Positions 4,501 to 36,091 of a stretch of 36,091 nucleotides of DNA are shown piece after piece. This DNA is from Planctomycetota bacterium (lineage in GTDB: Bacteria; Planctomycetota; Planctomycetia; Pirellulales; Pirellulaceae). The position numbers and the translations under genes were made by a program. Each line of letters begins with the position of its first letter. Position 1 is the first letter of the stretch. The stretch is from assembly GCA_026692885.1 (NCBI GenBank), contig JAPLNJ010000414.1, positions 1-36,091 of the forward strand, in the 5' to 3' direction. The notes under the pieces are model-generated. The model ran no database searches, was not told the DNA's origin, and saw only the letters and a program-made list of their open reading frames with translations.

Positions 4501-7311
4501 GTCGCCGGTGAAGTTTTCCGGCAAGCCCCAGATCGCCGCCCACTCCGGCGACCACCGGACGCGCGGGTTCGTGAGGTCCACCTCCATGGTGCCGATGTGC
4601 CCGATCTGGAGGGCGAGCCGCTGTAGCCGCTCGCTTTCCTGGAGCGCCGTTTTCGCCTGCCTGGCCGCAGTGATGTTGCGCACCACGCAGGTCAGACCGG
4701 TGGGTGGTCCGTCTTCTACCCGGAAGGCGGTGACGTGTATATCGAACCACGCCTGGCCCTGCGGCATGTCAAGCCAGTACTCCGCCTGGGTGGTGGTGCT
4801 GGTTTCCAAAGTCCGCGTCAGCGCGCCCTTGACGATGCCCAGAGCCGGTTCGGGAAAGCCGATCTCCTCAAACCGCTGGCCGACAAAGAATTCCGGCGCG
4901 ACGAGCAACTTGGCGGTGGGCGGTTGATGGTATTCTTGAAAAACGAAGTTCCGGTCTAGCACGAAGACCAGATCGTCCAGGCTGGCGAGGAGGGCGCGCA
5001 TCTGCCCGGCGCTGGCCTGCAACTCTTCTTTGGCGTGCAAGCGGTGGAGGAGTCCGCCCAGCAGGCCCGTGACCGTCTCCAGCGCCATGCGGGCGGCGGG
5101 CGGCATTTCGTCCACCGTGTGCGAGGTCACGTTCAGCACCGCCAGCAAGCGGCCGACGTAGTGGACCGGGAAGAGCGACAGCGCCCGCAAACCCTCCTGC
5201 TCCTCAATGGTCGGGGCGGGACGCCCTTGCGTCCGGGCCTGACCGTAAAGAATCTTGCCTTCCCGTGCCCAGCGGGCGTTGGCGCTGTCCGCCGGGAAGT
5301 GAGACACGGCGGCGACGAAGTCCGCGGACAGCCCGGCGTGGCAGACCAGTTTTAGGTCGCCGCTGGGTTCCTCCGCCAGATAAATGCCGCCGGCGTCCAT
5401 GCCGCCGACCTGGATGGCCGTCTCCAGGCAGAGGCGCAAGGTAGCGGGCAAATCAGAGCTGCTGGCCAGGGCGAAGCCCAGCTTCCGGAGCATCTCGAAC
5501 CGCTCCTCGGCTTGACGCCGCTCGGTGATGTCGTGCATGAAGCCGAAGGCGTAAAGCACCTTGCCCGCGGCATCCCGCACGGTCCCGGCGCGCTCCCAAA
5601 GCGGGAAACGCCGCCCCGTGCGGTCGAAGGTCTCCAACTCGCCCTCCCAGCTTTCGCCCCGCGCCAGCTTGGGGGCAACCACCTGGTTCAGCACGGCCAG
5701 CGATTCGGGGGGATAAAGGTCGCGAAAGTTCAGGCGGCGGGCTTCTGCCAGCGAATAGCCGAACAACTTTTCGTGGGCGGGATTGATGTAGCTGAGTTCA
5801 CCGGCCAGATCGCTGATGGCGACGGCTTCCTCCGCCGATTCGACAATCGCCTTGAAGAGCTGCAACGCGTCTTCCGCCTGCCGGCGTTCGGTAAGATCGC
5901 GGGTGATGCCCTGGATGTGCGTCACCAGGCGGTGGTCGTCGGCGATGAGCGTGGTGGCGACTTCGACGGGGACGACGGAGCCGTCGCGGCGAAACATGTC
6001 CAGCTCGTAGGTTTGGCTGCGGACGGAGTCATCGCCGACAGCGAAAGCCGCCAGCCGGGGCGGCAGCAGCGTCGCCACCTTCTGGCAGCTTTCCGGCGTC
6101 AGCGTATCGGCCAGCGTATGCTGGCTGACCTCTTCCGGGGTAAAGCCGCGCAGCTTCATCACGGCCGGGCTGGTGTAGGTGAAACGCTGGGTGCGGAGGT
6201 CGAGCAGCCAGATGACGTCGCTGCCGTTTTCGGCGAGGAGCCGGTAGCGGGCTTCGCTTTCCCGTAATTTGGCTTCGGCCTGCCGGTGCTCGGTGATGTC
6301 CAGCGCGTAGGCCACCCGCGAAACGGGCTGGCCCGCGGCGTCCCGGATCGTCGTCACGTCCACCAGCACCGGGAAGGTGGAGCCGTCCTTGCGGCGGTGG
6401 ACGGTTTCAAAGGCCAGATGCCCAACTTCGTCAATGGCGTTGAGCCGTTCCCGCATCGCCGGCAGCGTTTCCGGCGGATAGATCGTGGTGATCGGCTGGC
6501 CGACCAGTTCCGCCGGCGTGTAACCGCGTTGCCGGGCGCAGAAGTCGTTGACTTCCAGGAAAGTGTTGGTTGCCACGTCGGTGTGTACCAGGGAAAACCC
6601 CGCCGTCGTGAAGACCTGCTGCCAGCGGCGGGTCTGCGCCTCCGCTTGTTGGTGCTCGGTGATGTCCCGGAGCACGCTCAGGAAGTGCGGGCCGGTCGCC
6701 AACTGGATGATCTCGGTGGACATCAGGCAGGTCCGGCGGGTGCCTGACTTGGTGCGGAAGACGGCCTCGAAGTCCACCACCCGGCCCTCACGGCACACCA
6801 GAGCCACATACCGGTCGCGCTCGCCCGGATCGGCCCACAAGCCCAGCTCCACCGTTGTTCGCCCCAGCAACTCCTCCGGCGCGTAGCCGCTGATGCGGGT
6901 GACGGCGTCGTTGATTTCCGTGATCCGGCTGTCGGGGGCGCTGGAGAGGATGAAGGCGTCCGGGCAGGAGCGGAAGGCCTTGGCGAACTTCTCCTCCGAG
7001 AGGTGCAGCGAGGCTTCGGTCTGTTTGCGGGCGGTGAGATAGCGCGCATTGGCGTCGGCCAGTGCCGTCTGCGACTGGCGCAGCTCCTCGTTCTGCATCT
7101 CCAACTCGATCTGGTGGACTTGCAGTTCGTAGAGCAACCGCTGGGTGGCCTCGGGCGAAAGGGGCGCGCGGTCTTCCGGCAACTGCGCGGCTTGCTCCCG
7201 AAAGGCCGCTTCGGCGCGTTGGCGCAGATGCGGCCCGGAGTTGGCGGTCGGCAGGGCGGTTGCCGCCGCCGCCGGGTCAGCCGGGGCTGGTTGGTCAGTC
7301 AAGGTGCTCAC
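1588..7311 (-). CDS. Giant multi-PAS/GAF hybrid histidine kinase
   Basis: About 1907 residues. I chose the GTG at 7311 because an AGGGAG ribosome-binding site sits 5 nt upstream; an ATG 42 nt further out lacks one. No membrane segment is seen, so it is probably cytoplasmic. After a coiled coil come roughly nine PAS/PAC modules, with one GAF domain after the fourth (about residues 605-760). They are joined by helical linkers rich in ERRQAE. The transmitter follows: HisKA with H1451 in MSHEIRTPMNAI, HATPase_c with LINLLGNAVKFT and GTGLGLPIS, then a receiver with D1747 in LMDLRMPGMDG. The last 90 residues form a helical HPt-like tail, but I see no conserved phospho-accepting His. Such kinases integrate several redox or small-molecule cues; the ligands cannot be read here. 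It is first in a two-gene operon with the overlapping receiver-kinase gene. Confidence 0.9.
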   Translation of the reverse strand: MSTLTDQPAPADPAAAATALPTANSGPHLRQRAEAAFREQAAQLPEDRAPLSPEATQRLLYELQVHQIELEMQNEELRQSQTALADANARYLTARKQTEASLHLSEEKFAKAFRSCPDAFILSSAPDSRITEINDAVTRISGYAPEELLGRTTVELGLWADPGERDRYVALVCREGRVVDFEAVFRTKSGTRRTCLMSTEIIQLATGPHFLSVLRDITEHQQAEAQTRRWQQVFTTAGFSLVHTDVATNTFLEVNDFCARQRGYTPAELVGQPITTIYPPETLPAMRERLNAIDEVGHLAFETVHRRKDGSTFPVLVDVTTIRDAAGQPVSRVAYALDITEHRQAEAKLRESEARYRLLAENGSDVIWLLDLRTQRFTYTSPAVMKLRGFTPEEVSQHTLADTLTPESCQKVATLLPPRLAAFAVGDDSVRSQTYELDMFRRDGSVVPVEVATTLIADDHRLVTHIQGITRDLTERRQAEDALQLFKAIVESAEEAVAISDLAGELSYINPAHEKLFGYSLAEARRLNFRDLYPPESLAVLNQVVAPKLARGESWEGELETFDRTGRRFPLWERAGTVRDAAGKVLYAFGFMHDITERRQAEERFEMLRKLGFALASSSDLPATLRLCLETAIQVGGMDAGGIYLAEEPSGDLKLVCHAGLSADFVAAVSHFPADSANARWAREGKILYGQARTQGRPAPTIEEQEGLRALSLFPVHYVGRLLAVLNVTSHTVDEMPPAARMALETVTGLLGGLLHRLHAKEELQASAGQMRALLASLDDLVFVLDRNFVFQEYHQPPTAKLLVAPEFFVGQRFEEIGFPEPALGIVKGALTRTLETSTTTQAEYWLDMPQGQAWFDIHVTAFRVEDGPPTGLTCVVRNITAARQAKTALQESERLQRLALQIGHIGTMEVDLTNPRVRWSPEWAAIWGLPENFTGDFQTFYWARIHPDDLGWVQAQYAHQMESLEEHEMLFRILRPDGELRWISSRGQVLPETAGEGKRIIGVVLDVTEQKQAEQALRAREAQLKLALDAGRAITWEWDIASDTISYSSNAADFSRGKDQTPFSSRTSLAEQIHPDDRALVAEAFRRTKEESVPIDCEHRARLLDGACHWVLAKGNVTTTDRTGQAVRVAGVVVDITERKLLAEELSQLNRQLEQRVAERTAELSREIARRRQTEASLQASEQRHRDLVETIPGWVWEVDERGVYTFASAQCGDLLGYTPEEILGRSPFDFMPPEEAERVASLILPVMTCGEPICGLENTCRHKDGRLVIVETNGVPIRDATGKLRGYCGLDHDITKRRQAETQLRKLQSAVEQSPTAVVITDTTGAIEYVNPQFTVQTGYTAAEALGQNLRFLQSGQHPREFFVQMWETLRAGHIWRGELCNQRKDGTPFWESAAIAPIRDHAGWLTHYVAIKEDITERRRVAEELRQAKEAADAANLAKSRFLANMSHEIRTPMNAILGFSQLLLRDAERSGRGHPEYVTTILRSGEHLLRIINDILEMARIESGRVTLNLAPFDLYRLLEDLERMFRLRAQTKQLRFHVERQGEVPQHLLADETKLRQVLINLLGNAVKFTPNGGAITLRVRSEPEPDGALRLHAEIEDTGLGIAPEDLPHLFEPFFQTSSGRQVTGGTGLGLPISQEFVRLMGGKLEVASQVGVGSTFRFDVRVSRAQATAAGAERTAGPGSVRLLPGQPACRVLIVDDLPENRDLLVQLLAPVGFEVRTAVDGVEAVAHCQEWAPQLVLMDLRMPGMDGYEATRRIRTAHGALVKIIALSASAFTESKQRAFAEGADAFISKPLQTADLLDRIKDLVGVDYVDVAPQEAAATVHDEAVAERLTAGEMCRLPAELVAALREATCRADYQQMLNLVEQAATHDKRLGRLLRQLVKRFDYATLHELLAADPPNV

Positions 7312-7476
7312 GATAACTCCCTGAAACAGTGGGGAACGGCAGGAACAAAGCAAGCTTCGGACGGGGTGATTTATATCTTGGCCCCATTACCACCCGCCGT
7401 GAAGGGGTCATCGCTTTTGTCTGGCTGTCGTGCTCAGTGTCCGAAACAGTCGTCATGCTCCGGAGGGCCGGCATTA

Positions 7477-7743: not shown

Positions 7744-9129
7744 TCACAGCCCGTACTTGCGCAGCAGGGCGTGCAGGTTGGGCCGCTTGATGCCGATCTC
7801 CTCGGCAGCCCGACTCACGTTGTCGTCGTTCCGCCGCAGGACCTCGGTCAGGAACCGCCGCTCGAGATCTGCGACGGCCGCATCCAGGACTTGCTGCTTG
7901 AGTTGCTTGAACTCCTCCCACGTATGCGGTAACTGGGTCACCGTGCCCGCCACCGCCGCTTGGCGAATCTCGGCCGGGAGTTGGGGCAGTTCGATCCGCG
8001 GGCCGTCGCAGAGAATGGCCATCCGCTCGACGACGTTTCGCAACTCGCGGATGTTGCCGGGCCAGGCATAACTCTCCAGCTGGGCCATCGCCTCTTGGGT
8101 GAACCCCTTGACCGGCGTTTCCAATTTCTTGCAGAACCGGTCCAGGAAGATGCAGGCCAGCAAGGGGATGTCGCCGCGCCGTTCACGCAACGGTGGCAGG
8201 AAGATCGGCACGACGTTCAGCCGGTAGTACAGATCCTCGCGGAAGGATCCTGCCTTGACCAGGTCCTGCAGCTGGCGGTTCGTGGCGGCGATCAGACGGA
8301 TATCGATCTCCCGCTCGGCCGTATCGCCGACTTTCCTGACCTGCTTGCTTTCCAGCACGCGCAGCAGTTTACCCTGGGTTTCCAGCGTCAGGTTGGCGAC
8401 TTCGTCCAGGAACAAGGTCCCCTTGCTGGCGGCCTCGAACAGACCCTGCTTGGTCGCGATGGCCCCGGAGAACGAGCCTTTGACGTGGCCGAACAGTTCG
8501 CTTTCCAGCAGGGTCGGAGCCAAGGCGCTGCAGTCGCAGGCCAACAGCGGCGCGTTTTGGCGGCGGCTGAGCCGGTGGATGGCCCGCACCAACATCTCCT
8601 TGCCCGTGCCGCTTTCGCCCGTGACCAGAACCGTACCATCGGTCGGCGCCACACGTTTTACCAGGCCGAAGACGTGCTCCATCGGCCGGCTCTCGCCGAT
8701 GATCCCTTCGAAGCCGCGATTCAGTTCCAGCTCTCGCCGCAGCTCGGCGTTCTCACGAATCAACGTCGAGTGTTCCCACACCTTCTGCATGACCAGCTTC
8801 AGTTGAGCGGGAGAAAACGGCTTGCTCAAGTAATCGGTGGCGCCCTGCTTCATAGCCTCCACGGCGGTTTCGACGGTGGAATTCCCGGTGATGATCACCA
8901 CCTCGGAGGAGACGCCCGAAGCCTTGATGCGGGCGAGCAGCTCCAGACCGTGGATACCAGGGAGCATCAGGTCGAGAAAGATCACGTCGAAGCCGCCGGA
9001 CAACGCCGCCTGCAGGCCGGCTTGCGGATCCTGATAGACCTCGATCGCGTGGCCATCGGGACCGAGGATGCGTTTGATACTCAGGCCAATGACAGCTTCG
9101 TCGTCGATGACCAGGAGGCGTTGTGGCAT
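7744..9129 (-). CDS. NtrC-family sigma54-dependent response regulator
   Basis: A 461-residue transcriptional activator. Receiver, residues 1-120: D9/D10, phospho-acceptor D53 (FLDLMLPG) and K103. Sigma54-interacting AAA+ domain, about 140-375: Walker A GESGTGKE at 171-178, Walker B GTLFLDEV around 237-244, sensor motif RLIAATNR and the WPGNIREL segment. The C-terminal Fis-type helix-turn-helix reads NVSRAAEEIGIKRPNLHALL. The sigma54-contact loop reads GSFSGA (218-223) instead of the usual GAFTGA, a conservative but notable change. It begins 13 nt after the Cache histidine kinase, its likely phospho-donor. A near-consensus sigma54 promoter stands just across the divergent intergenic region before the hydrogenase genes, so it probably activates that operon (inference). 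Confidence 0.93.
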   Translation of the reverse strand: MPQRLLVIDDEAVIGLSIKRILGPDGHAIEVYQDPQAGLQAALSGGFDVIFLDLMLPGIHGLELLARIKASGVSSEVVIITGNSTVETAVEAMKQGATDYLSKPFSPAQLKLVMQKVWEHSTLIRENAELRRELELNRGFEGIIGESRPMEHVFGLVKRVAPTDGTVLVTGESGTGKEMLVRAIHRLSRRQNAPLLACDCSALAPTLLESELFGHVKGSFSGAIATKQGLFEAASKGTLFLDEVANLTLETQGKLLRVLESKQVRKVGDTAEREIDIRLIAATNRQLQDLVKAGSFREDLYYRLNVVPIFLPPLRERRGDIPLLACIFLDRFCKKLETPVKGFTQEAMAQLESYAWPGNIRELRNVVERMAILCDGPRIELPQLPAEIRQAAVAGTVTQLPHTWEEFKQLKQQVLDAAVADLERRFLTEVLRRNDDNVSRAAEEIGIKRPNLHALLRKYGL

Positions 9130-9142
9130 AGCTTGGCCTTTC

Positions 9143-11104
9143 TCACGTCGTCAGGAACGGATGCTCGCTGGGCACCGAGTTGGCGGTTTCACCGATCGGA
9201 GCTCGCCCCAAGGCGGGCAGCAAGATGGTAAAGGTTGTGCCCTGGCCCGCCGCACTGTTCAGTTCGATGACCCCGCCATGCTGTTGGAGGATGCCGTAAC
9301 TGACGCTCAAGCCCAAGCCGGTCCCTTTGCCGACCGGCTTGGTCGTAAAGAACGGCTCGAACACACGGTCGAAATGCTCCGGCTTGATCCCACAGCCCGT
9401 GTCGCTCAACCTGACCAGCACCCGATCCTCCTCGGCCACGGTACGAACCGTCAGCGTGCCCCCGCCGGGCATCGCCTCGCAGGCATTGAGCGACAGATTC
9501 AGCAGCACTTGCTGCAGTTGATTCATATCGCCACGAATGTCAGGCAGGTCGGGCGCCAATTCCTCGGCGATGACGATCTGGTCGAAGAGCTTCTGGTTGC
9601 GAATCAGACGCATCGTGCGCCCGATCACTTCGTTGATGTTCAGCGGCTCCATGACAACGGCCCGTTCGCGGGCGAAGTCCAGCAACCCGCGCACGATCTC
9701 CGCCGCGCGCGTGGTCTCGTGGATGATCAGATCCAGGTCTTGCCGGTCCTGCTCCTCCATATTGGACTTTTCCTTCAGCAAATGGGCGAAGGTCAGCACT
9801 CCGGTCAGCGGATTGTTGATTTCGTGGGCCACTCCGGCAGCCAGGCGTCCGAGTGAGGCCAGTTTCTCGCTACGGCCCAATTGCTTGCTGGTCGCCGCCT
9901 GCAACTGCTGTTCACGTTCCGCCAAGGCGTCGGCCATCTGATCGACGGCCTGGCAAAGAATGCCGATCTCGCCGGGCGGCCGGATCCCGACCCGCGCGGT
10001 GAAGTCGCCGCGGACCACGCGTTGGGACATCTCGATCACCTTCACGGCCGGCCGCAAGACCAAGTAGTTCATGAAATAGACCAGCAGGAAACAGGCCAGC
10101 GTGCCGGACAAGACCATGACCAGAACCACGCCTACCAGCGTGTTCCGCGTGTGCAGGAACGGCGCCTGCAGCAAGCCCACATACAAGGCGCCAACGATGT
10201 TCTGCTGGGAATCGCGGAGCGGTTCGTAGGCCGTGAAATACCAGTCGTTGACCACGAAGGCGGGTGCGGACCAGGTCACGCCCCGGACCAGCACCTGGTC
10301 GGCCACCTCCTGGCTCATCCGCGTGCCCACAGCGCGGGTGCCGTCGGATTGCAGCACGTTGGTGGCGATCCGCAGGTCGCCCAGGAAGATCGTCACCGTG
10401 TCCGCGGGTCCGGCACTCGGGTCCGCCGTTCGAAACACGACGTCGCGGAAGGCATCCGCCAAGTCGTCGCGGCGGTTCAATAAGTCGCCGCCGTACATCA
10501 CGCCCTGCAAGACACCTTGTCCGTCGACCAACGGCACGGCCACGGCGACGACCAGACCGTCGGTGCGAAACGTCTCCTGGCTCGGCTGGGTGCGCTCGGT
10601 CGGCAACGTTTCGATGGCAGCTCGAGCGGCCAACCCCTCGCCGTCTTTCGCGAGGCTGGCGACCGGCACGGCCAGCGTTCCGGTGATCGCCTCCCGCCGG
10701 CCGATGGCCGCCGCAATCAAGGGGTTCTCCGAGAGATCGTCGCCGTATTGGTCAGGGCGCCAAGCACGCACGAGCACCTTGCCATGCATATCGACCACGG
10801 TGAGAAAATCCATTCGCCCCCGGCTACAGAACTGCCGCAACAGATCCGGGAGTCGATTGCGATCCGCCGCGGCCGCGGCGGTCACCAACGTCTCATCGAC
10901 AGCGGCGGCCTGCAGATACACCGAGATATTGCGGAGGTGGCCGTCATAGGCAGCTCGGGCCGAATTCAGATTCAGCCGGACGCGGGTCTGCACGGACTCG
11001 AACCACACGCTTTCCAAATAGGTTACGACGGCCAGCGACAGGATCGCGTTGGCCACGAGAATCCCGGCGATGGAGAGGATCGTCAGTTTCAGTCGAATGG
11101 TCAT
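9143..11104 (-). CDS. Membrane Cache-HAMP sensor histidine kinase
   Basis: A 653-residue sensor kinase. I favour the ATG at 11104 (MTIRLKLTILSIAG) because a transmembrane helix follows at once; an ORF start 57 nt upstream would place an unlikely leader before the helix. The first membrane segment is near residues 8-30. A periplasmic Cache-type region of about 280 residues follows (including FLTVVDMHGKVLVRA and YEPLRDSQQNIVGALYVG), then a second membrane segment (VGVVLVMVLSGTLACFLLVY), HAMP, HisKA with H427 in GVAHEINNPLTG, and HATPase_c with LLNLSLNACEAM, SDTGCGI and [14 protein letters not shown]. NtrB-like transmitters of this type usually phosphorylate NtrC-type regulators, and one is encoded next. 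The extracytoplasmic ligand is unknown. It is transcribed divergently from the hydrogenase operon. Confidence 0.92.
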   Translation of the reverse strand: MTIRLKLTILSIAGILVANAILSLAVVTYLESVWFESVQTRVRLNLNSARAAYDGHLRNISVYLQAAAVDETLVTAAAAADRNRLPDLLRQFCSRGRMDFLTVVDMHGKVLVRAWRPDQYGDDLSENPLIAAAIGRREAITGTLAVPVASLAKDGEGLAARAAIETLPTERTQPSQETFRTDGLVVAVAVPLVDGQGVLQGVMYGGDLLNRRDDLADAFRDVVFRTADPSAGPADTVTIFLGDLRIATNVLQSDGTRAVGTRMSQEVADQVLVRGVTWSAPAFVVNDWYFTAYEPLRDSQQNIVGALYVGLLQAPFLHTRNTLVGVVLVMVLSGTLACFLLVYFMNYLVLRPAVKVIEMSQRVVRGDFTARVGIRPPGEIGILCQAVDQMADALAEREQQLQAATSKQLGRSEKLASLGRLAAGVAHEINNPLTGVLTFAHLLKEKSNMEEQDRQDLDLIIHETTRAAEIVRGLLDFARERAVVMEPLNINEVIGRTMRLIRNQKLFDQIVIAEELAPDLPDIRGDMNQLQQVLLNLSLNACEAMPGGGTLTVRTVAEEDRVLVRLSDTGCGIKPEHFDRVFEPFFTTKPVGKGTGLGLSVSYGILQQHGGVIELNSAAGQGTTFTILLPALGRAPIGETANSVPSEHPFLTT

Positions 11105-11289
11105 GGGCTGGAACTCTATACACTGTATGTCGCGACCATACACCACCAGGCCGAATTCCACAATGGGTTGCGGCGTCTGCGGACAGGGGAAGAAGTCGCT
11201 TCGAAAAGCGTTTCCAGCCGTGAATTACCGCCGGTTCCCGAGCCGCTTACCCCCGCCGAAACAGTCTCATTTGAACGCGTCGTGTGATG

Positions 11290-22751: not shown

Positions 22752-22888
22752 GTAAACGACTCTTCCGCCCCAAAGGGGCATTAACAAATCAGCCCAGGGC
22801 AGCGCGCAGCGGCGTCAGCCGCGGAGCGACGCCCTGGGTACGGTATCGATTCAACACGGTAGCCCTGTAAGGGCGAAACAAATCGGTT
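22752..22888 (+). repeat. Dispersed 120-135-bp repeat, copy A
   Basis: Contains CGCCCCAAAGGGGCA, then CAAATCAGCCCAGGGCAG and a palindromic GC-rich centre, and ends GTAAGGGCGAAACAAATC. It is the same subtype as copy D (27436-27572, opposite strand), sharing CGATTCAACACGGTAGCCCT. No ORF is conserved between copies, so it is a structured non-coding repeat. Confidence 0.75.
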
Positions 22889-22970
22889 AGTCCCACACGT
22901 CTCGTTCGTCTTCCAACAAGATGGATGAGGTTCTGGACTAAGGATGGTAGCCTGATTGTGTTGCGCCGGC

Positions 22971-23093
22971 TTGTTTCGCCCCTTCAGGGCTGGCGTGCTT
23001 GATACTCCCATGACCCAGGGCGGCGCTACGCGGCTGACGCCGCGGCGCTCTGCCCTGGGCTGATTTGTGGCTGCCCCTATCGGGGCGAAAACT
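22971..23093 (-). repeat. Dispersed 120-135-bp repeat, copy B
   Basis: Reverse orientation to copy A, forming an inverted pair 82 nt apart. Begins CTTGTTTCGCCCCTTCAGGG and ends CCCCTATCGGGGCGAAAAC, with the shared CTGCCCTGGGCTGATTTGT. It is closest to copy C at 27279. Confidence 0.75.
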
Positions 23094-23381
23094 TGTGTCG
23101 GACAAGTGGCACCTAGGCAATTGTGGGGACTCCGCGCCGCGCTTGTTATCCGGCTTACAAGCGTGGCTGGCGAGGAGTGGAGGTTACTTCCACAGGGTTG
23201 GAAACTGCCCGAGTTTCAACGTCCGACGTCCTCCCTGCGTACCCACTGCTTGGTCGATACAGGTTTCCAGGAACGCGGCGATCTCCTCGGCCCGGGTGCG
23301 GTAAACGGTGGGGCTGGAGAAGGCTTGCTTACGTCAGTCTTCGCTCAGCCAGAGGCCGTCGAATTTACCTCGGCGGAGTTC

Positions 23382-23958: not shown

Positions 23959-26900
23959 ATGCACAAACCGTGCGTTTTCATCTCGTCCACGTGCGAGGAT
24001 CTGCAGGCCCACCGCCTGGCGGCGCGCGATGCGGCACTGGGCGCGGGGTTCTTCCCCGTGATGATGGAGTACTGGACAGCCGAGGCCAAAGATCCGCTGG
24101 ACGTCTGCCTGCGCCGCGTGGACGAGGCCGAACCGGTGGTCGTGATCGTGGCGCAGCGCTATGGTTGGAAGCCGAAAGATCAGCCCCAAGGTAAACTGCG
24201 CAAGAGCATCACCTGGCTGGAATGCCTGCGTGCCCCGGACGCGGGCAAAGACGTCCTGGCCTTCCTGCTCGACGACACACACCCCTGGGATCCAACGCTG
24301 TACGAGAAGTACCTGTTCACGTCCCTGGGTAGTGAAGACAAGTTGACCGCCTCACGCCAAAAAGAAATCCTGCGAGACATTGCGGCGCTCGAACAGTTCA
24401 AGAAGTGGTTGCGCACCAACGGCGTGGTCAAGTTCTTCACCACACCGCAAGACCTGCTGGCCAAGGTCCAGGCGGCACTGCAGCAGTGGCTGATCGACCA
24501 TGCCGACCGCTTGCCGTCGGCGGTCGTTCCGCAGCCGGTGCTGGTCGACCGTCCAGAGGACTACCTGCAGACGCTGTACGAACGCACGGGCAGCATCGAG
24601 ATCCGCGGTCTGCACGTCGGCAGCGGCCGGGCCTCCAGCTTTCCCATCGACGAGCTCTACATGCCGTTGACCACCGTCGCGCCCCGAAGCGACCGGCTGG
24701 CCAAGGCTCGGGAGGGCGAGGCTCCTGCCGACCCGCTTGGCGACTCCGGCGGGCGGATCGAATTGGACCAGGCCCTCGAACACCGCCGACTGGCCATTTT
24801 AGGCGATCCGGGCGCCGGCAAATCGACCTTCCTGCGGCGGATCGCCTTCCTGCTGTCCCGGTCCCTGTTGGGAAAGGATCCGCCTGGGGTTGGGGGACCG
24901 TTGGGCCTGGACGACCGACCGCTACCGGTGCTGATTACCGTCGCGGCCTTGGCCGACCACATCCGCCATTGCCTGGGCCGCGAATCCGGTGCTCCCCTGG
25001 CGGCCGACGCCGCGGCGTGGATCCCGCATTACCTGGGCACATCCTGCCGCGAAAGTAACATCGCCCTCAGCGAAACCTACTTTCGCAGCCAATTGGACGA
25101 AGGCCGCGTGATCGTGCTGATGGACGGCCTGGACGAAGCCGCCTCGGACCACGACCGGCGGCGAGTGGCGGCTGTGGTCCAGCACGCGGCCCAGGCCTAT
25201 CGAGGCTGCCGCCTGGTGCTGACCAGCCGCCCGGCCGCCTACGAGCGCGACGTGCTGCTGCGCGAATTCGCCTTGGTCCGCATCGAGCCGCTCGAGGACG
25301 CGGCCATCGGCGGCTTTCTGGACCACTGGTGCCGGGCCTTATTCGCCGAGCGGCCGACGCAGGTGGCGGCCCATCGCGCTGAGTTGCTGCACGCCCTGCA
25401 CGCGCGGCCTGAGATCCGGCGATTGGCCCGCAATCCCGTGATGCTGACCGCGTTGGCCGTGGTCCACTGGCACGAAAAACGCCTGCCCGAACAGCGCGCC
25501 GATCTGTACGAATCGATTCTCGACTGGCTGGCCCGCGCCCGGGAGAATCGGCCGCAGCGGCCGAACGCCGAACGCTGTGTGGCCCTGCTGCAGAAGCTGG
25601 CGCTGGCCATGCAGGAGCATGCCCAGGGGCGCCAGGTGCAGGTTCCGCGCCACTGGGCCGCGCGCCAGATCGCCGACGGTTGGCGCGAGATCCCGGAAGA
25701 CGAACGGGTCGCGCAGGCCCAGCAGTTCCTGGTCGAGGAGGAGTTGGACAGCGGCATCGTCGTGGGCCGCGGCGACGACCTGCGGTTCTGGCACCTGACG
25801 TTCCAGGAGTACCTGGCCGCGCGGGCCTTGGGCGCGCAGGCGGCCGATGTCCGGCAGCATCCGTTGTTTCGCCACGAGCAGCTGCATCGGCCCGAGTGGC
25901 GGGAGACGGTGCTGCTGCTGGCCGGCGTGCTGTACCACCAGGGCATCGATCGCGTGGACGCCATGATCTCGGCCGTGCTGGACGGGCTGGGCCAGCAGCC
26001 CACGCTCACCGACCAGGCCCGCGTCGTCGGTCTGTTGGGCGCTGCCGTGGCGGATTTGGCGCCGGTGAACTACCAGCCGGCCGACTCGCGTTACCGCCAG
26101 ACGCTGGACGCCGTGATGGCCATCTTCCGGCCGGACAGCGACGTGCCGATCGACCAGGCCATCGTCGCCGCCGACGTCCTGGGCCAAGCTGGCGACCCGC
26201 GGTTCGCGGACCGCCGCCGACACGAGAATCGGATTCCCATTGCGGCCGGCGAGTTCTGGATGGGAGCGCAGAACAACGATCCAGCGGCACCGAACCACGA
26301 CCCGGGGGCGCACGGCGACGAGGCACCGGTCCACCGGGTGCACTTGTCCGCCTATCGCATCGGCCGTTATCCCGTGACGGTCGGCGAGTACCGCGAGTTC
26401 ATGGAGCACGACGGCTACGACACGCAGGCATACTGGGCAGCCGGAGGCTTCCGCCAGTTCAAGGAACCCGACAAGTGGGAAGAGCAACTCCGGTATCCGA
26501 CTCGGCCCGTGGTATACGTCAGTTGGTACGAAGCGGCGGCCTACGCGGCCTGGGCGGGTTGCCAGCTGCCGACCGAAGCCCAGTGGGAGCGGGCGGCCTG
26601 CGGCGGCGATGGGCGCAAGTTCCCCTGGGGCAGCGACGATCCGGACCCGACGCGGATGAACTACGCCACAGGCAAAGCTGAGGACTATTCAAACTGGAAA
26701 CCGAACGTGGGCCATCCGACGCCCGTCGGCATCTATCCGCGAGGAGCCTCAAAAGAGGGCGTTGATGACATGGCCGGCAACGTCTGGGAGTGGTGCGCGG
26801 ATTGGTTCGGCGACTACATCCAGGAGCAAACCACCAACCCGAGTGGGCCGCCGGAAGGGAAGAGCCGCGTTGTTCGCGGTGGTGCTTGGCATGGTCACTC

Positions 26901-26997
26901 GGGGCTTTGCCGCTGCGCCTTCCGCGGCCCCTATGGTCCCGTGTATCGCCTCGATGCCATCGGTTTCCGTGTGGCGTGGCGCGGCCAGGACTCTTGA
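23959..26997 (+). CDS. DUF4062-NACHT/STAND NTPase with FGE/C-type-lectin variable domain (DGR target 1)
   Basis: 1012 residues; I chose the ATG at 23959, with GGGGAG 6 nt upstream. N-terminal DUF4062 (1-90): CVFISSTCEDLQAHR and MMEYWTAEAKDPLDVCLRRV. The NACHT/STAND NTPase follows: Walker A GDPGAGKST (282-290), Walker B RVIVLMDGLDEA (about 385-393), LVLTSRPAAYERD, and helical segments ending in RFWHLTFQEYLAAR. From about 759 comes a formylglycine-generating-enzyme/SUMF1 fold (IPIAAGEFWMG, YPVTVGEYREF, LPTEAQWERAA, DMAGNVWEWCADWFG), ending in a hypervariable tail RVVRGGAW...CRC...IGFRVAWRGQDS. FGE folds ending this way are typical targets of diversity-generating retroelements. Family knowledge suggests a conflict sensor: the variable lectin-like domain binds an invader molecule, the NTPase oligomerises and DUF4062 signals. 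That role is inference. It converges on a paralogue at 28668-31655. Confidence 0.88.
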   Translation: MHKPCVFISSTCEDLQAHRLAARDAALGAGFFPVMMEYWTAEAKDPLDVCLRRVDEAEPVVVIVAQRYGWKPKDQPQGKLRKSITWLECLRAPDAGKDVLAFLLDDTHPWDPTLYEKYLFTSLGSEDKLTASRQKEILRDIAALEQFKKWLRTNGVVKFFTTPQDLLAKVQAALQQWLIDHADRLPSAVVPQPVLVDRPEDYLQTLYERTGSIEIRGLHVGSGRASSFPIDELYMPLTTVAPRSDRLAKAREGEAPADPLGDSGGRIELDQALEHRRLAILGDPGAGKSTFLRRIAFLLSRSLLGKDPPGVGGPLGLDDRPLPVLITVAALADHIRHCLGRESGAPLAADAAAWIPHYLGTSCRESNIALSETYFRSQLDEGRVIVLMDGLDEAASDHDRRRVAAVVQHAAQAYRGCRLVLTSRPAAYERDVLLREFALVRIEPLEDAAIGGFLDHWCRALFAERPTQVAAHRAELLHALHARPEIRRLARNPVMLTALAVVHWHEKRLPEQRADLYESILDWLARARENRPQRPNAERCVALLQKLALAMQEHAQGRQVQVPRHWAARQIADGWREIPEDERVAQAQQFLVEEELDSGIVVGRGDDLRFWHLTFQEYLAARALGAQAADVRQHPLFRHEQLHRPEWRETVLLLAGVLYHQGIDRVDAMISAVLDGLGQQPTLTDQARVVGLLGAAVADLAPVNYQPADSRYRQTLDAVMAIFRPDSDVPIDQAIVAADVLGQAGDPRFADRRRHENRIPIAAGEFWMGAQNNDPAAPNHDPGAHGDEAPVHRVHLSAYRIGRYPVTVGEYREFMEHDGYDTQAYWAAGGFRQFKEPDKWEEQLRYPTRPVVYVSWYEAAAYAAWAGCQLPTEAQWERAACGGDGRKFPWGSDDPDPTRMNYATGKAEDYSNWKPNVGHPTPVGIYPRGASKEGVDDMAGNVWEWCADWFGDYIQEQTTNPSGPPEGKSRVVRGGAWHGHSGLCRCAFRGPYGPVYRLDAIGFRVAWRGQDS
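26866..26997 (+). other. DGR variable repeat VR1
   Basis: The last 44 codons of the first STAND gene. Relative to VR2 of the paralogue, the 35 codons from 26890 differ at 25 nucleotides, 22 of them at first or second codon positions. The final 12 codons plus stop differ at one position only, as expected of an initiation-of-mutagenic-homing segment. Versus the template relic (27171-27203), VR1 differs at 7 of 8 template adenines but at only 5 of 25 other bases. Confidence 0.82.
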
Positions 26998-27029
26998 AAA
27001 TCTTTCCCTCTCCTACCCTTTCCTAACCT

Positions 27030-27042
27030 GCCGCGCAGCGGC
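27030..27042 (+). other. GC-rich hairpin downstream of VR1
   Basis: GCCGC-GCA-GCGGC forms a 5-bp stem starting 33 nt after the stop codon, within a 3' flank nearly identical to that of the paralogue. DGR targets characteristically carry such a hairpin or cruciform just downstream of the variable repeat to direct homing. The function is inferred from position and conservation. Confidence 0.6.
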
Positions 27043-27143
27043 GCGCGAAAAATTTTCGGGTTTTCAGTCCGCCGTGTTTATTGTCTTGTGCGAGGAGCGT
27101 AGAATGGCCGACGTTCAGAGGAGGAAGGGTGTTCGGTCATTGA

Positions 27144-27243
27144 AGCCGCGTTGTTCGCGGTGGGGCTTGGCATAATTCTACGAGGAATTGCCGCTGCTCT
27201 TACCTTTGCTTTGCGGAGTGATTACGAAATCAGGGATGACCGA
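27144..27243 (+). other. Decayed DGR template repeat (TR)
   Basis: Positions 27144-27170 are identical to VR2 except for the first base, and differ from VR1 only by GGG for GGT (encoding RVVRGGAW). The codons CAT AAT TCT ACG AGG AAT, TGC CGC TGC TCT TAC then follow (27171-27203). Eight adenines lie in these 33 nt; VR1 differs at seven and VR2 at six of them, whereas non-adenines differ at five and three of 25. Downstream, a shifted frame keeps SDYEIRDDRVA-like vestiges to about 27243, after which repeat copy C begins. The 3' homing part (IGFRVAW...) is not preserved, so it cannot prime homing. It could instead be the end of a third lost target, but the adenine pattern favours a template. Confidence 0.72.
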
Positions 27244-27278
27244 GTGGCCCCTGGGGCACTCCTGGTCCTGATCCACGG

Positions 27279-27401
27279 GTTTTCGCCCCAAAGGGGCAGC
27301 CACAAATCAGCCCAGGGCAGAGCGGAGCGGCGTAGCCGCGTAGCGCCGCCCTGGGTTAGGAGAGGATGGAGAACACCAGCCCTGAAGGGGCGAAACAAGC
27401 C
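27279..27401 (+). repeat. Dispersed 120-135-bp repeat, copy C
   Basis: Begins GTTTTCGCCCCAAAGGGGCA and ends CCCTGAAGGGGCGAAACAAG, as in copy B read on the other strand. It starts where the template-repeat vestige ends, so its arrival probably helped destroy the retroelement. Confidence 0.75.
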
Positions 27402-27435
27402 TTGATCACGTCTGACGAACGATGCGCGTGAGAGG

Positions 27436-27572
27436 AACCGATTTGTTTCGCCCTTTCAGGGCTACCGTGTTGAATCGATCCAGTACCCAGGGCGGCACTC
27501 CGCGGCTGTCGCCGCTACGCTCTGCCCTGGGCTGATTTGTTAATGCCCCTATCGGGGCGGAAGAGTTGTGGT
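27436..27572 (-). repeat. Dispersed 120-135-bp repeat, copy D
   Basis: Reverse orientation, pairing with copy C across 34 nt. It matches copy A almost throughout, including AACCGATTTGTTTCGCCC and GGGGCGGAAGAGT. The spacing and orientation mirror the A/B pair upstream of the first STAND gene. Confidence 0.75.
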
Positions 27573-27657: not shown

Positions 27658-27715
27658 CTCGTTCCCACGCTCCGCGTGGGAACGCAAGTGTTTTGACGCT
27701 CCGCGTCGTCTGCCC
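27658..27715 (+). repeat. 58-bp repeat truncating the Avd gene
   Basis: Starts CTCGTTCCCACGCTCCGCGT and ends GCGTCGTCTGCCC. A copy at 35978-36035 is identical at 57 of 58 positions. The Avd coding similarity begins at the last base of this repeat, showing that the insertion, or a deletion anchored in it, removed the gene start. Confidence 0.8.
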
Positions 27716-28008
27716 TGTGGGCCGTCGCGCACACGGAGAAGTTCCCTCGCTCGCATCGGGCCGGTTTGGGGCGGAGAATCGACGACCGCTTGGAGTCGTT
27801 GCTGGACGATCTGATCGAAGCCAAATACACCAGCGACAAGGCCGAGATTCTGCGACGAGCGGGGCTGCAGGCGGAGCAGATCCGTTACCAATTCCGACTG
27901 GCCAAAGATCTCCGGTTGTTAGCTCCCGACAGCCACCGCCACGCGATCGTGCTCTTGGATGACATCGGCCGCCAGCTGGGTGGGTGGCGGCGGAAGAACG
28001 AGGGTTGA
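27715..28008 (+). pseudogene. avd: Avd-like DGR accessory protein, 5'-truncated
   Basis: In frame from 27715 the sequence reads LWAVAHTEKFPRSHRAGLGR, then RIDDRLESLLDDLIEAKYTS, ILRRAGLQAEQIRYQFRLAK and IVLLDDIGRQLGGWRRK. This is the four-helix-bundle Avd family of diversity-generating retroelements, in which FPRSHR..LG.RI.DRL and RLAKDL...IG..LGGW are hallmarks. Only the first 10-20 residues and the natural start are lost, replaced by a dispersed 58-bp repeat; a TTG at 27766 could allow a short product. Avd normally forms a basic pentameric barrel that binds the reverse transcriptase and template RNA. The stop overlaps the ATG of the reverse-transcriptase relic (TGATG), so the genes were once translationally coupled. 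Confidence 0.85.
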
Positions 28009-28430
28009 TGCAGCGTGCAGGCAACCTATTTCCGGAGATCACGTCGTGGGCCAACCTGCTACGGGCCTGCACGTCGAGCCAGGGCGTCAATTTCCTGGGC
28101 TACCGGTTGTTTACCGACCATCGTCGACTGCGCCGGGACAGTGTCAAACGCATGAAACACCGGATGCGGACCATGCAAGCCCAGTACGCTTGCGGTGAGC
28201 TCTCGATCCAGAAGATCACCGAACGCATCCGCAGCTGGATCGGACACGCTCAACACGCGGACACCTATCGCTTGCGTGAGCACATCCTGGGAGATTTTCC
28301 CTTTTGCCGGAAACGCGAGTCCCAGGACGTGGATGAATCAGGGACCGGGGAGAGTCCGGGTGACCCTGAGGCGGATGGACTGGGTCGGCAGGAATCCGAT
28401 GCCCTGGGGGACTTGGATTGGTTGGTTTGA
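28008..28430 (+). pseudogene. DGR reverse transcriptase with catalytic core deleted
   Basis: Starts at the ATG overlapping the Avd stop. The first 20 codons, MQRAGNLFPEITSWANLLRA, match the very N-terminus of DGR-type reverse transcriptases. The sequence then jumps to the C-terminal thumb region: GVNFLGYRLFTDHRRLRRDS, VKRMKHRMRTMQAQYACGEL, then IRSWIGHAQHADTYRLREHI. About 250 residues normally lie between these parts, including the palm and the YxDD active site; all are missing, so the product (at most 140 residues) cannot polymerise. The frame stays open across the junction, so a single in-frame deletion suffices. The acidic tail after FCRK is not recognised. It is the third component of the ruined retroelement, after template and avd. 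Confidence 0.88.
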
Positions 28431-28575: not shown

Positions 28576-28621
28576 TTAAACGAGCTGCTGCCGACGACCG
28601 CCCAAGAAATTTTTTTTCGCG

Positions 28622-28636
28622 CGCCGCTGCGCGGCG
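28622..28636 (-). other. GC-rich hairpin downstream of VR2
   Basis: On the minus strand CGCCGC-GCA-GCGGCG, a perfect 6-bp stem with the same 3-nt loop as behind VR1, begins 31 nt after the stop codon. The roughly 60 nt after the stops of the two STAND genes are nearly identical, ending in GCGCGCGAAAAA. This supports a shared homing signal. Confidence 0.65.
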
Positions 28637-28667
28637 GGTTAGGAAAGGGGATAAGGGAGAAAGATTT

Positions 28668-28799
28668 TCAAGAGTCCTGGCCACGCCACGCCACACGGAA
28701 ACCGATGTCATCGCTGCGAAGCTCGGGATCAAGGTGGAGGCGGCAAGAGCAGCGGCAACCCCACGACGGATTAGACCAAGCCCCACCGCGAACAACGCG
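28668..28799 (-). other. DGR variable repeat VR2
   Basis: The last 43 codons plus stop of the second STAND gene. In the 33-nt window 28743-28775 it departs from the template relic at six of eight template adenines (for example ACG to TCG, AGG to TGG, AAT to GGT, TAC to TGC) and at three of 25 other bases. The constant part IGFRVAWRGQDS is nearly identical to VR1. Confidence 0.82.
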
Positions 28800-31655
28800 G
28801 CGTTCCCCTTTGTCTGACCCCGTCGGATTACGGATACTCCTCGGTTCGTACGGGCCGAACCAATCCTCGCACCACTCCCACACGTTACCCGCCAGGTCCG
28901 CCAAGCCCTCGGGCGAGACTCCTCGGGGATAAATGCCGACCGGCGTCGCGTGTGTGACGTTGGACGCATAGTTCAGCAGTTCCGCCGTCGGTTCGTCGTT
29001 GCCCCAGGGGAATCGTCGTCCGTCGGTGCCTCGTGCGGCGCGTTCCCACTCGGCTTCGGTCGGCAGACGGTAATCCTCCCCGGCCCAGCGGCAGTAGGCC
29101 TGGGCCTCGAACCAGGACACGCCCGTCACGGGCCAGTTGGGATGCTGTTTCTGCTCGGCCCAACCGTCCGGCTCGGTGAATTGCTGCCAGCCGCCCGCGG
29201 CCCAATGCCGCTTGTCAGCGTAACCATCGTTATCGACGAACAGCCGGTACTGGGCCACGGTCACCGGATAACGTCCGAGCTTGTAGGCGTCCAGGTAGAC
29301 CGTGCGGACGGGCGATTCGTCATCGTCCGCTTCGGCATCGAAATTCGCAGCCTTTTTCTTCTTCTTTTGCGACCCCATCCGGAACTCACCCGCCGGAATC
29401 TTGACCCAGAGGTCCGGCGTGGGACCGTGGGGGAACCGCGGGTCCCCGGCTTGCCCCAAGGCGTCGGCGGCGTCAATGGCGTCGGCGATCGGCACTTGCC
29501 GCGAACGGATGGGATCGAAGATGCCCAACACGTCGTCCAGAATCTGCTGGTAACGCGGCTCTTTCGGCCGGTAGTTCACCGGCGTGAGATCCCGCACCAC
29601 AGAGCCCAGCAGCCCGGCACAACGGGCGTGAGCCGCTAACCTCGCGTTTTCTGGCAATTGGTCGATCACCACGCGAATCATCTGGTCCACACGCTCCATG
29701 CCGTGATGGTGCAGTACGCCTGCCAGCAGCAGGAAGACTTCACGCCACTCGGGTTGGTACAAACGTTCGGTGGCCAACAGCCGGTCGCGGCGCTCCTGGT
29801 CCGTGCAGGCGGCCAGGGCCCGGGCGGCCAGGTGCTCCTGGAACGTCAGATGCCAGTAGCGCAGGTCGTCGCCGCGGGCCACGACGATGCCGCTGTCCAA
29901 CTCCTCTTCGACCAGGAACCGCTCGGCCGCCTCGATGCGCTGCTGCGGATCGTCTTGGTCGCGAAACCCGTCCGCGATCTGTTCGGCGGCCCAACGCCGC
30001 CGGACCTGCACCTGACGGCCGTCCGGATGGCCCTGCATGGCCAACGCCAGGTTTTGCAGCAGGCCGATGCAGCGTTCCGGCTTGGGCCGGCCCGGTCTCA
30101 GGTCCCTGGCGCGGGCCAACCAGGTGATGATCGACTCGTACAAGTCGGCCCGCTGTTCGGGCAGGCGTTTTTCGTTCCAGTGCACGACGGCCATCGCCGT
30201 GAGCATGACCGGATTGCTGGCCAGTCGGCGGATGTCGTCGCGGGCTCGCAAGGCCGTCAGCAGTTCGGTCACGTGCAAGGTAGCCTGCTGCGGGTCGTCC
30301 ACGTACAGTGCCCGGCACCAACGGTCCAGAAAGACCTCGATGGCCTCGCTCTCCAACGGCGCGATCAGCACTGGCGCGAAGCCGGGCAAGGTCGTCTGGC
30401 CCTGCACGGCCGAGGGCCGGCTGGTGACGACGAATCGGCAGCGTTCGTAGGCGGTGGCCGCGTTTTCGATCAAGGCGACGAGCCTGCGGCGGTCGGCCTC
30501 GGACGGCGCTTCGTCCAATCCATCCAGCAGAACGATGGCTCGGCCGCTGCTGAGCAGATCTTGAAACCAGGATTCGTCGGCGCCCGGGCAGCCTGCGCGC
30601 CACGCGGACGCCAGGAAATGGGGCAACCAATCCGCCAGGTGTTTTATCGTGGGTCCGTCGCCCCGTTCATGGGCGGCGCGGATGTGTTCGTTCAGGTCCG
30701 ACAGCCGGAGGAAGAGGGGAAACGGCGGTTCGGCCGAGTCCCACCAGGGGCCTTCACGTGGACCGGTCTCTCCGAGACCGGATTCCGCGTCTCGGAGAGA
30801 CGCGGCCACGTGAGGGGCGTCTCGGAGAGACGCGTCTATGTCGACGCCGGAACGCTGTTCACACAGTTCGCAAGCGATACGGCGCAGGAAGGTGGTCTTG
30901 CCGGACCCGGGATCGCCGCTGATGACCAGCCGCGGCACGCGCAGCGATCGATGCAAGTCGACGCGCCGCTCGGCCAGCGCCAAGTGCGTCTTGTCGTCCG
31001 GCTGTTCCGCGTCCGCCGCCGGGCCGACGGAGGCCAGGGGGATGAACAACTGCTGGATGGGGAACCGATGCGCGCGGCCGCTGCCGACTTGCAGCCCGCG
31101 AATATCGATCCACCGCGTCTGGGCATGCAGCTGACGCAGGTAGGTCAATTCGTCGACCGGCGGCAGTTGGCCGGCATTACGCCGTTGTTGCAACCAGCGC
31201 CCCAGGGCCTTGTGGATGAGCACCGATTCGGGCTTGTGGTCGAAGAACCCCACGACGTGCTTGGCCTTCAGTTCACGGCGCCACGACTCCACGAGCGGGT
31301 CGGCCTGCCGTTCGTCATACTTGGCGCGCCAAAGGGCCTCGTCGTCCAGCAGGAAGACCAGCACGTCGATGTCCAATTCGCACGCGCGGAGGTATTCCAG
31401 CTGGGTGATGCTCTCGGTCTGACCTGTGGGCACACAGCCGCGGCGGAAGGCCACCAGCAGCACGCACAAGTCGCAGTCGTCGATGCGTTGGACGGAGACC
31501 TGCTGCGGTTCGCTGTTGTCGGCTGTCCAGTCCTCCATCGGGTCGACGTGCAGGCCCGACCCGCGCAGTTGATCGATCACGAACCTGCGGTGTTCCCGCA
31601 GATCGGCGAAGGTCGACGACACGAACGCGCGTGGGGGTTGGTTTGCAGACGGCAT
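28668..31655 (-). CDS. DUF4062-NACHT/STAND NTPase with FGE/C-type-lectin variable domain (DGR target 2)
   Basis: 995 residues from the ATG at 31655, which has CCGGAG 8 nt upstream. It is paralogous to the gene at 23959-26997 along its whole length. DUF4062: AFVSSTFADLREHR, PMEDWTADNSEPQQVSVQRI. NACHT: Walker A GDPGSGKTT (247-255), Walker B AIVLLDGLDEA (D378), VVTSRPSAVQ, then RYWHLTFQEHLAAR. The FGE/SUMF1 fold starts near 750 (VKIPAGEFRMG, YPVTVAQYRLF, LPTEAEWERAA, DLAGNVWEWCEDWFG) and ends in a variable tail RVVRGGAWSNPSWGCRCSC through IGFRVAWRGQDS. Between the Walker A helix and the next strand it carries an Asp/Arg/Gly-rich insertion of about 25 residues encoded by palindromic repeat DNA. 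It is probably a sensor NTPase of a bacterial conflict system with retroelement-made binding specificity (inference). It is transcribed towards the DGR relic and its paralogue. Confidence 0.88.
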   Translation of the reverse strand: MPSANQPPRAFVSSTFADLREHRRFVIDQLRGSGLHVDPMEDWTADNSEPQQVSVQRIDDCDLCVLLVAFRRGCVPTGQTESITQLEYLRACELDIDVLVFLLDDEALWRAKYDERQADPLVESWRRELKAKHVVGFFDHKPESVLIHKALGRWLQQRRNAGQLPPVDELTYLRQLHAQTRWIDIRGLQVGSGRAHRFPIQQLFIPLASVGPAADAEQPDDKTHLALAERRVDLHRSLRVPRLVISGDPGSGKTTFLRRIACELCEQRSGVDIDASLRDAPHVAASLRDAESGLGETGPREGPWWDSAEPPFPLFLRLSDLNEHIRAAHERGDGPTIKHLADWLPHFLASAWRAGCPGADESWFQDLLSSGRAIVLLDGLDEAPSEADRRRLVALIENAATAYERCRFVVTSRPSAVQGQTTLPGFAPVLIAPLESEAIEVFLDRWCRALYVDDPQQATLHVTELLTALRARDDIRRLASNPVMLTAMAVVHWNEKRLPEQRADLYESIITWLARARDLRPGRPKPERCIGLLQNLALAMQGHPDGRQVQVRRRWAAEQIADGFRDQDDPQQRIEAAERFLVEEELDSGIVVARGDDLRYWHLTFQEHLAARALAACTDQERRDRLLATERLYQPEWREVFLLLAGVLHHHGMERVDQMIRVVIDQLPENARLAAHARCAGLLGSVVRDLTPVNYRPKEPRYQQILDDVLGIFDPIRSRQVPIADAIDAADALGQAGDPRFPHGPTPDLWVKIPAGEFRMGSQKKKKKAANFDAEADDDESPVRTVYLDAYKLGRYPVTVAQYRLFVDNDGYADKRHWAAGGWQQFTEPDGWAEQKQHPNWPVTGVSWFEAQAYCRWAGEDYRLPTEAEWERAARGTDGRRFPWGNDEPTAELLNYASNVTHATPVGIYPRGVSPEGLADLAGNVWEWCEDWFGPYEPRSIRNPTGSDKGERRVVRGGAWSNPSWGCRCSCRLHLDPELRSDDIGFRVAWRGQDS
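30758..30840. repeat. Palindromic repeat inserted in frame within the NACHT domain
   Basis: GCGTCTCGGAGAGACGCG occurs twice (30787-30804, 30817-30834). It is flanked by CACGTGG/CCACGTG and preceded by GGTCTCTCCGAGACC. In the minus-strand gene these encode ASLRDA twice plus SGLGETGPREGP, absent from the paralogue. It appears to be a mobile hairpin that inserted without breaking the frame. Confidence 0.65.
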
Positions 31656-35977: not shown

Positions 35978-36091
35978 CTCGTTCCCACGCTCTGCGTGGG
36001 AACGCAAGTGTTTTGACGCTCCGCGTCGTCTGCCCAAGGACGCAGAGCGTCCGCGGCTTGCGTTCCGACGCAGAGCGTCGGAACGAGAAAA
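35978..36091 (+). repeat. CGTTCCCACGC-type dispersed repeat, fuller copy
   Basis: The first 58 nt are identical at 57 positions to the copy at 27658-27715. It then continues through GGACGCAGAGCGTCC and CGTTCCGACGCAGAGCGTCG to GGAACGAG, giving terminal CTCGTTCC/GGAACGAG inverted ends and several inner hairpins. It occupies the rest of the window after the HhH gene; no coding signal is seen. Confidence 0.75.

Follow-up and report, generated by a model that had tools for sequence, protein, structure and literature searches.

Diversity-generating retroelements (DGRs) that have lost parts of their machinery have been described in Thiohalocapsa PB-PSB1. As set out in the text of Dore et al. 2024 (PMC10907252), the DGR loci there have their machinery missing or pseudogenized, MITE-like repeats replace the reverse transcriptase (RT) or the template repeat (TR), and the targets include conflict-system proteins (NACHT, nSTAND1) with the variable stretch (VR) in a C-terminal lectin-type or FGE domain. 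The text of the DiGReF study (PMC3521204) describes truncated DGR RTs that arose via transposon insertions, nonsense or frameshift mutations, and that of Roux et al. 2021 (PMC8144416) classes some DGRs as 'inactive' by their VR variation. For the Bordetella phage BPP-1, Guo et al. 2011 (PMC3240598) report in their text that efficient homing depends on an inverted repeat downstream of the VR; the hairpin stem is 8 bp long in BPP-1 and 7–10 bp in the phage-related cases shown, with 4-nt loops.

Here, we analyzed a 36-kb stretch of DNA (hereafter the window) in which a short intergenic segment is probably the TR of a decayed DGR that served two DUF4062-NACHT-FGE targets. This kind of decay has already been described (PMC10907252), and the locus adds a well-preserved example. 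In the literature that we surveyed, which came largely from outside subscription journals, there was no precedent closer than Dore et al.

Gene neighborhood and target genes

The window carries two convergent DUF4062-NACHT-FGE genes, target 1 on the plus strand and target 2 on the minus strand. Remnants of an Avd gene and of an RT gene lie between them, downstream of the template-like segment and on the same strand as it (Table 1). Pfam profiles recovered all three domains in target 1 (DUF4062, 2.2e-19; NACHT, 2.2e-9; FGE-sulfatase, 5.4e-58) and in target 2 (2.1e-15, 2.4e-10 and 5.6e-59, respectively). The start of each gene was placed by alignment to a database protein: P0041, whose alignment to target 1 starts at residue 18, and P0024, which is the database's own call of the target 2 gene. 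The FGE-sulfatase domain forms the C-terminus of both proteins, with the VR at the 3' end of the FGE-type target, and both tails follow a common order of RVVRGGAW, a variable stretch and then IGFRVAWRGQDS. Elsewhere in the window, Pfam identified a 1921-aa multi-PAS hybrid histidine kinase (1588–7353, minus strand), which is adjoined by a sigma-54 response regulator (7744–9129, minus) and a Cache/HAMP histidine kinase (9143–11161, minus).

Table 1. Features of the locus, in coordinates of the window.
Feature	Positions	Strand	Remarks
Target 1, DUF4062-NACHT-FGE (STAND-type)	23959–26997	+	ORF from 23908; likely start 23959 via P0041 alignment
VR1 core	26890–26958	+	target 1; 23 codons flanked by RVVRGGAW and IGFRVAWRGQDS
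Conserved post-stop stretch, target 1	26998–27052	+	candidate homing signal; GC-rich inverted repeat 27030–27042
Probable template-repeat relic	27145–27204	+	RVVRGGAW codons, then HNSTRN-CRC-SY; 6/11 of the latter codons with adenine
Possible 3' remainder of the decayed template repeat	27205–27243	+	marginal likeness to the VR2 tail only
Palindromic dispersed repeat	27281–27562		between relic and Avd gene; other copy ~22756–23096
Second dispersed repeat	27658–27715		abuts the Avd remnant; 98% identical copy 35978–36035
Avd (DGR accessory protein) remnant	27715–28008	+	without the first ~15 residues
DGR reverse-transcriptase remnant	28008–28430	+	N-terminal ~20 residues joined in frame to the C-terminal end; catalytic core missing
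Conserved post-stop stretch, target 2	28613–28667	-	inverted repeat ~28622–28636
Target 2, DUF4062-NACHT-FGE	28668–31655	-	ORF from 31676; start via P0024 alignment
VR2 core	28707–28775	-	target 2

From IGFRVAWRGQDS to the stop, the two targets are identical at 39 of 40 positions. Behind the stop they agree at 49/55 nt, and in the next stretch at 19/58; upstream, the compared coding parts are 72% and 79% identical, and the one immediately ahead of RVVRGGAW 57%. The hairpins of the post-stop stretches are weak, with z-scores of -1.9 and -2.2 when folded over 62–66 nt and of -0.3 and -1.1 for 33-nt pieces, and Rfam at gathering thresholds gave no match in the window. The TR side of this candidate homing signal is lost or unrecognizable, and the 3' half of the relic, in which it would be expected, is itself barely recognizable. 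Two families of dispersed repeats, one of them palindromic, occur in the window with copies that are 82–98% identical. Each has one copy in the interval from the relic to the Avd remnant, and that of the second family occupies the site where relatives of Avd have their N-terminal residues.

Homology and adenine bias of the template-like segment

The earlier note had read a 100-nt segment (27144–27243) as a fossil TR that opens with the codons for RVVRGGAW and continues with a version of the tails. Homology of this kind to the start of both tails is secure for 60 nt (27145–27204), at 79% identity to VR1 over 61 nt and 85% to VR2 over 60 nt; by identities, the segment is nearer to VR2 (52/62) than to VR1 (48/62). 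The remainder of the claimed length, up to 27243, is marginal. The alignment score of 27205–27250 against the VR2 tail was matched by 139/4000 shuffles and by 30/978 unrelated tiles, and against the VR1 tail the same stretch gave no alignment beyond chance (340/500 shuffles equal).

Within the 33 nt that can be compared across all three copies (relic, 27171–27203; VR1, 26890–26922; VR2, 28775–28743 on the minus strand), the coordinates and counts given earlier proved exact: the relic has 8 adenines, of which 7 are changed in VR1 and 6 in VR2, as against 5/25 and 3/25 of its other bases. VR substitutions are thus enriched at relic adenines (one-sided Fisher p = 0.0012 for VR1 and 0.0017 for VR2). 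With VR1 or VR2 in the role of template, the four comparisons over the same 33 nt yielded p = 0.13 to 1. Over 60 nt the p-values fall to 3.2e-5 and 4.3e-5; these are inflated because 26 constant bases contain no relic adenine, and we do not treat them as the main evidence. When both strands of the window were scanned with tolerance for changes at template adenines, the relic scored 38.6 against VR1 and 46.9 against VR2, exceeded by the VRs alone. The next matches reached 17.0 and 14.8, and 12 triplet-shuffled windows scanned in this way peaked at 18.1. Apart from each other, the two tails therefore have one strong partner within the window, namely the relic. All 8 relic adenines fall at codon positions 1 or 2, a phase that does not single out the relic because the adenines of VR1 (2/2) and VR2 (2/2) share it.

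The fit extends to the level of codons, which we number x1 onward behind RVVRGGAW. At the six relic codons that bear adenine, 17 of the 18 residues found in VR1, VR2 and P0041 can be reached by adenine-only changes, the sole exception being S in VR2 for the relic CAT at x1. The relic TAC (Y) is represented in the tails by F, C and S, which are its three other outcomes, and the three adenine-free codons of CRC are unchanged in VR1, VR2 and P0041. At the two other adenine-free codons the tails depart from the relic: the residue at x3 is unreachable from it in all three, and that at x10 in two (VR1 and P0041).

As a yardstick, we sought intact TR/VR pairs in 30 loci, of which 22 gave at least one pair and 8 none. 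After L012 (which repeats the L003 stretch), L027 (with ambiguous bases) and a duplicate in reverse direction in L028 had been excluded, 20 pairs were counted. In these, 282/554 adenines and 10/1700 non-adenines were changed, the pairs having passed a filter that demanded mostly adenine mismatches. The non-adenine mismatches of the relic far exceed those of these adenine-filtered pairs. Both the non-adenine differences (20% for VR1 and 12% for VR2) and the residues that the relic could not have written (x3; x10 in VR1 and P0041; x1 in VR2) therefore point either to drift in the relic or to a different TR as the source of the latest tails. Like the relic, the TR/VR blocks of two intact FGE-type DGRs, L004 and L009, open immediately ahead of RV-RGG-W; in two others, L003 and L010, the reported block does not open until the first variable codon. 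At x2 and x6 the relic codon is AAT, and AAC stands there in all four elements.

Remnants of Avd and the reverse transcriptase

The Avd remnant matches NCBIfam NF033474 (DivGenRetAVD) at 2.9e-22 and 78.9 bits, just below the cut-off of 80, Pfam bAvd at 3.6e-15 and 56.8 bits against a cut-off of 40, and PHROG 3206 at 3e-18. Its alignment comprised 19 of 21 matches, including the window's own sequence (P0021 and P0023 were left out), and the N-terminal residues that it lacks are present in 17 of the 18 aligned relatives. The only Avd relative with an organism name, P0017 (55%), comes from a Pirellulales MAG.

The open reading frame of the RT remnant starts in overlap with the avd stop codon. It matches the PHROG 1423 reverse transcriptase profile at 6e-22 over profile positions 365–449, and no Pfam or NCBIfam profile matched it. 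Its opening, MQRAGNLFPEITSWANLLRA, aligns to residues 13–32 of the intact RT of L004, a Nitrospira DGR, and its C-terminal part aligns to residues 288–361; the YVDD of L004 falls between the two. About 250 residues, including the catalytic centre (YxDD), are thus gone, so the cis copy of the RT should be unable to write. The earlier note held that the machinery had died; this stands for the cis copy, in which the RT core and the start of Avd are gone, and is too strong for anything beyond it. The in-frame junction may be an assembly artefact.

Two database proteins resemble the RT remnant. P0146 (132 aa), an independent metagenome protein, is DGR RT-like with its leader joined to the C-terminal end and the core absent. 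We treat it as a lead rather than as evidence of selection because the search that yielded it was limited to proteins of ~0.55 to 1.75 times the length of the remnant. P0144 (88 aa) is 93% identical to the C-terminal end of the RT; its gene call starts at an internal Met, and its contig is 1.9 kb long. Its RT may also be broken, or may have been cut by the contig end. A speculation that we consider very improbable is that the RT remnant of the window, whose start still overlaps the avd stop, persists as a core-less 'mini-RT' that binds RNA or Avd and thereby modulates other DGRs of the genome.

Among genome contigs, the RT remnant retrieved 11 distant loci, none of them planctomycete-titled, and among viral contigs it retrieved 17 distant loci that served as a yardstick only; 24 stretches recovered from viral contigs with the Avd alignment held no relatives. 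In plasmids, tblastn found no close relative, all hits of the RT remnant (13 records) and of target 2 (538) being below 60% identity.

Template repeat, third variable tail or ordinary divergence

To weigh the explanations of the segment, we fitted a likelihood model of adenine mutagenesis plus drift, comparing the segment as a TR, as a third VR and as a product of divergence without any DGR over a grid of parameters. On 33 nt, the best log10 likelihoods were -42.1, -44.2 and -46.9, respectively, and the grid-averaged values -43.2, -44.9 and -47.8; the best TR fit lies at an adenine-change rate of 0.8, which is the grid edge and above the 0.51 of intact pairs. On 59 nt, the values were -62.1, -62.7 and -68.5. 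VR1 or VR2 as the template was tried and rejected, at -47.4 and -46.9 being no better than ordinary divergence at -46.9 (33 nt).

If no DGR had been involved, the three copies would be paralogous FGE tails that diverged ordinarily, with an adenine pattern due to chance. FGE tails do vary at these residues in many of the listed proteins, which may or may not be DGR targets. Nevertheless, the TR is preferred by ~10^4.6–4.8 on 33 nt, and the Avd and DGR RT remnants between the targets speak decisively against this explanation, whose probability we regard as negligible.

The closer competitor makes the segment the 3' terminus of a lost third target, a VR whose template adenines by chance escaped rewriting. 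The likelihood ratio against it is ~10^1.8–2.1 on 33 nt, or ~60- to 130-fold over the grid, and only ~10^0.6 on 59 nt. With one fixed parameter set, at which the observed log10 ratio is 1.2, 0.85% of 4000 simulated third VRs were as TR-like as the segment, and 25% of simulated TRs fell below the observed ratio. At five alignment columns that distinguish VR1 from VR2, the relic has a base other than adenine, as would be expected of a rewritten tail. Its residues, however, would be unusual for one: among the 66 tails that fit the motif, out of 120 listed FGE proteins, N occurs at both x2 and x6 in 3/66 and T at x4 in 1/66. A lost gene might also have left coding sequence upstream, where 91 nt align weakly to the coding sequence of target 1 (13/500 and 109/4000 shuffles equal), but against target 2 the same 27053–27143 score 25, which 1309/4000 shuffles equal, amounting to no homology. 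Finally, the homology of the relic has the same starting point as the TR/VR blocks in L004 and L009. We infer from these comparisons that the segment is a TR rather than a third VR, the latter being unlikely. FGE coding homology in the upstream stretch was rejected as a feature of the locus, its score of 30 against target 1 being equalled by 109/4000 shuffles and 17/434 unrelated tiles.

Hypervariation of the target 1 tail

P0041 is an ortholog of target 1 that is 94.7% identical over 1012 aligned residues. In this comparison, which covers one ortholog and target 1 only, 12 of the 23 variable-core residues differ as against 42/989 elsewhere (Fisher p = 1.3e-10), and the two flanking constant blocks show 0/20 differences. 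For target 2, nothing as close is listed, the best match (P0046) being 63% identical. The longest contig of P0046 and that of an Avd relative (P0009, 71%) are both 9026 bases; because of this shared length, the two may belong to one relative locus.

A decayed DGR with two targets is therefore indicated by the homology of the segment to both tails, its adenine bias and the variation of the tail against the ortholog, and most strongly by the downstream remnants of Avd and RT, to which the earlier note did not refer. The fossil-template reading of the earlier note is accordingly the best supported, although not over its full length.

A tail that departs at 12/23 residues from an ortholog so similar elsewhere implies that writing went on after the split, in at least one lineage. 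This bears on the possibility that, with the cis machinery dead, the targets are or were recently rewritten in trans by another DGR while the relic, now redundant, decays, a scenario compatible with the segment being a TR. Besides the divergent tail, it would fit the H at x3 and the A at x10 that VR1 and P0041 share and that the relic cannot encode, and the text of Dore et al. (PMC10907252) infers trans activity for degenerate Thiohalocapsa loci. On the other hand, no second DGR was recognized within the window, and writing may have ended just after the split or continued only in the other lineage. Rewriting in trans thus appears possible but somewhat doubtful; the probable identity of the segment as a TR is independent of it.

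Proposed history of the locus

Read as a decayed DGR, the locus suggests the following course; its general mechanism follows published work, and the sequence in which the parts decayed is conjectural. In the working element, an RNA copy of the TR would have been reverse transcribed by the RT with Avd, placing random bases at adenines, and the resulting cDNA would have replaced the C-terminal VR of each target. Decay would then have proceeded in cis: palindromic dispersed repeats now stand at the places expected for the remaining TR and the avd start, and the RT presumably lost its catalytic core. The target genes would have stayed open, retaining the tails last written.

The known DGR mechanism is unchanged by this finding. 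Its strongest points are that remnants of the TR, Avd and RT lie together with two targets and that hypervariation is visible against an ortholog. The ancestry of the locus can thus be read from 60 nt of a probable template, two tails and two broken genes, and large target genes can remain open after the loss of the cis mutator. Counts of such loci could indicate how frequently targeted hypermutation of conflict-system sensors arises and disappears in bacteria.

Comparison with known systems

Among intact elements, the locus resembles the Nitrospira DGR L004 (MAG UBA6909), which has a target with an FGE-like C-terminal VR, an Avd-like ORF and an RT with YVDD. The L004 TR reads RVIRGGSWNNKPEN and differs from its VR at adenines only (23/23 mismatches). 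Unlike in L004, where the TR lies behind the RT, the probable TR here lies before avd; the two elements are distant in sequence, the RT C-termini being 41% identical. With BPP-1, as described in the text of Guo et al. (PMC3240598), the locus shares the signature of adenine-directed rewriting from TR to VR and a GC-rich inverted repeat behind the VR, but the stem here is 5–6 bp with a 3-nt loop, lies ~32 nt behind the stop and is weak. Like members of the set described in the DiGReF text (PMC3521204), it has a DGR RT broken by mutation, the difference being that here the core was lost in frame. The closest counterparts are the Thiohalocapsa PB-PSB1 loci, which, in the account of Dore et al. (PMC10907252), likewise show broken machinery, repeats in its place and conflict-system targets with the VR in a C-terminal lectin-type or FGE domain. 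Unlike those loci as described there, the present one has targets of the DUF4062-NACHT-FGE type, the term DUF4062 being absent from the main text of that paper, and it brings a core-deleted in-frame RT together with Avd and probable TR remnants at a single locus.
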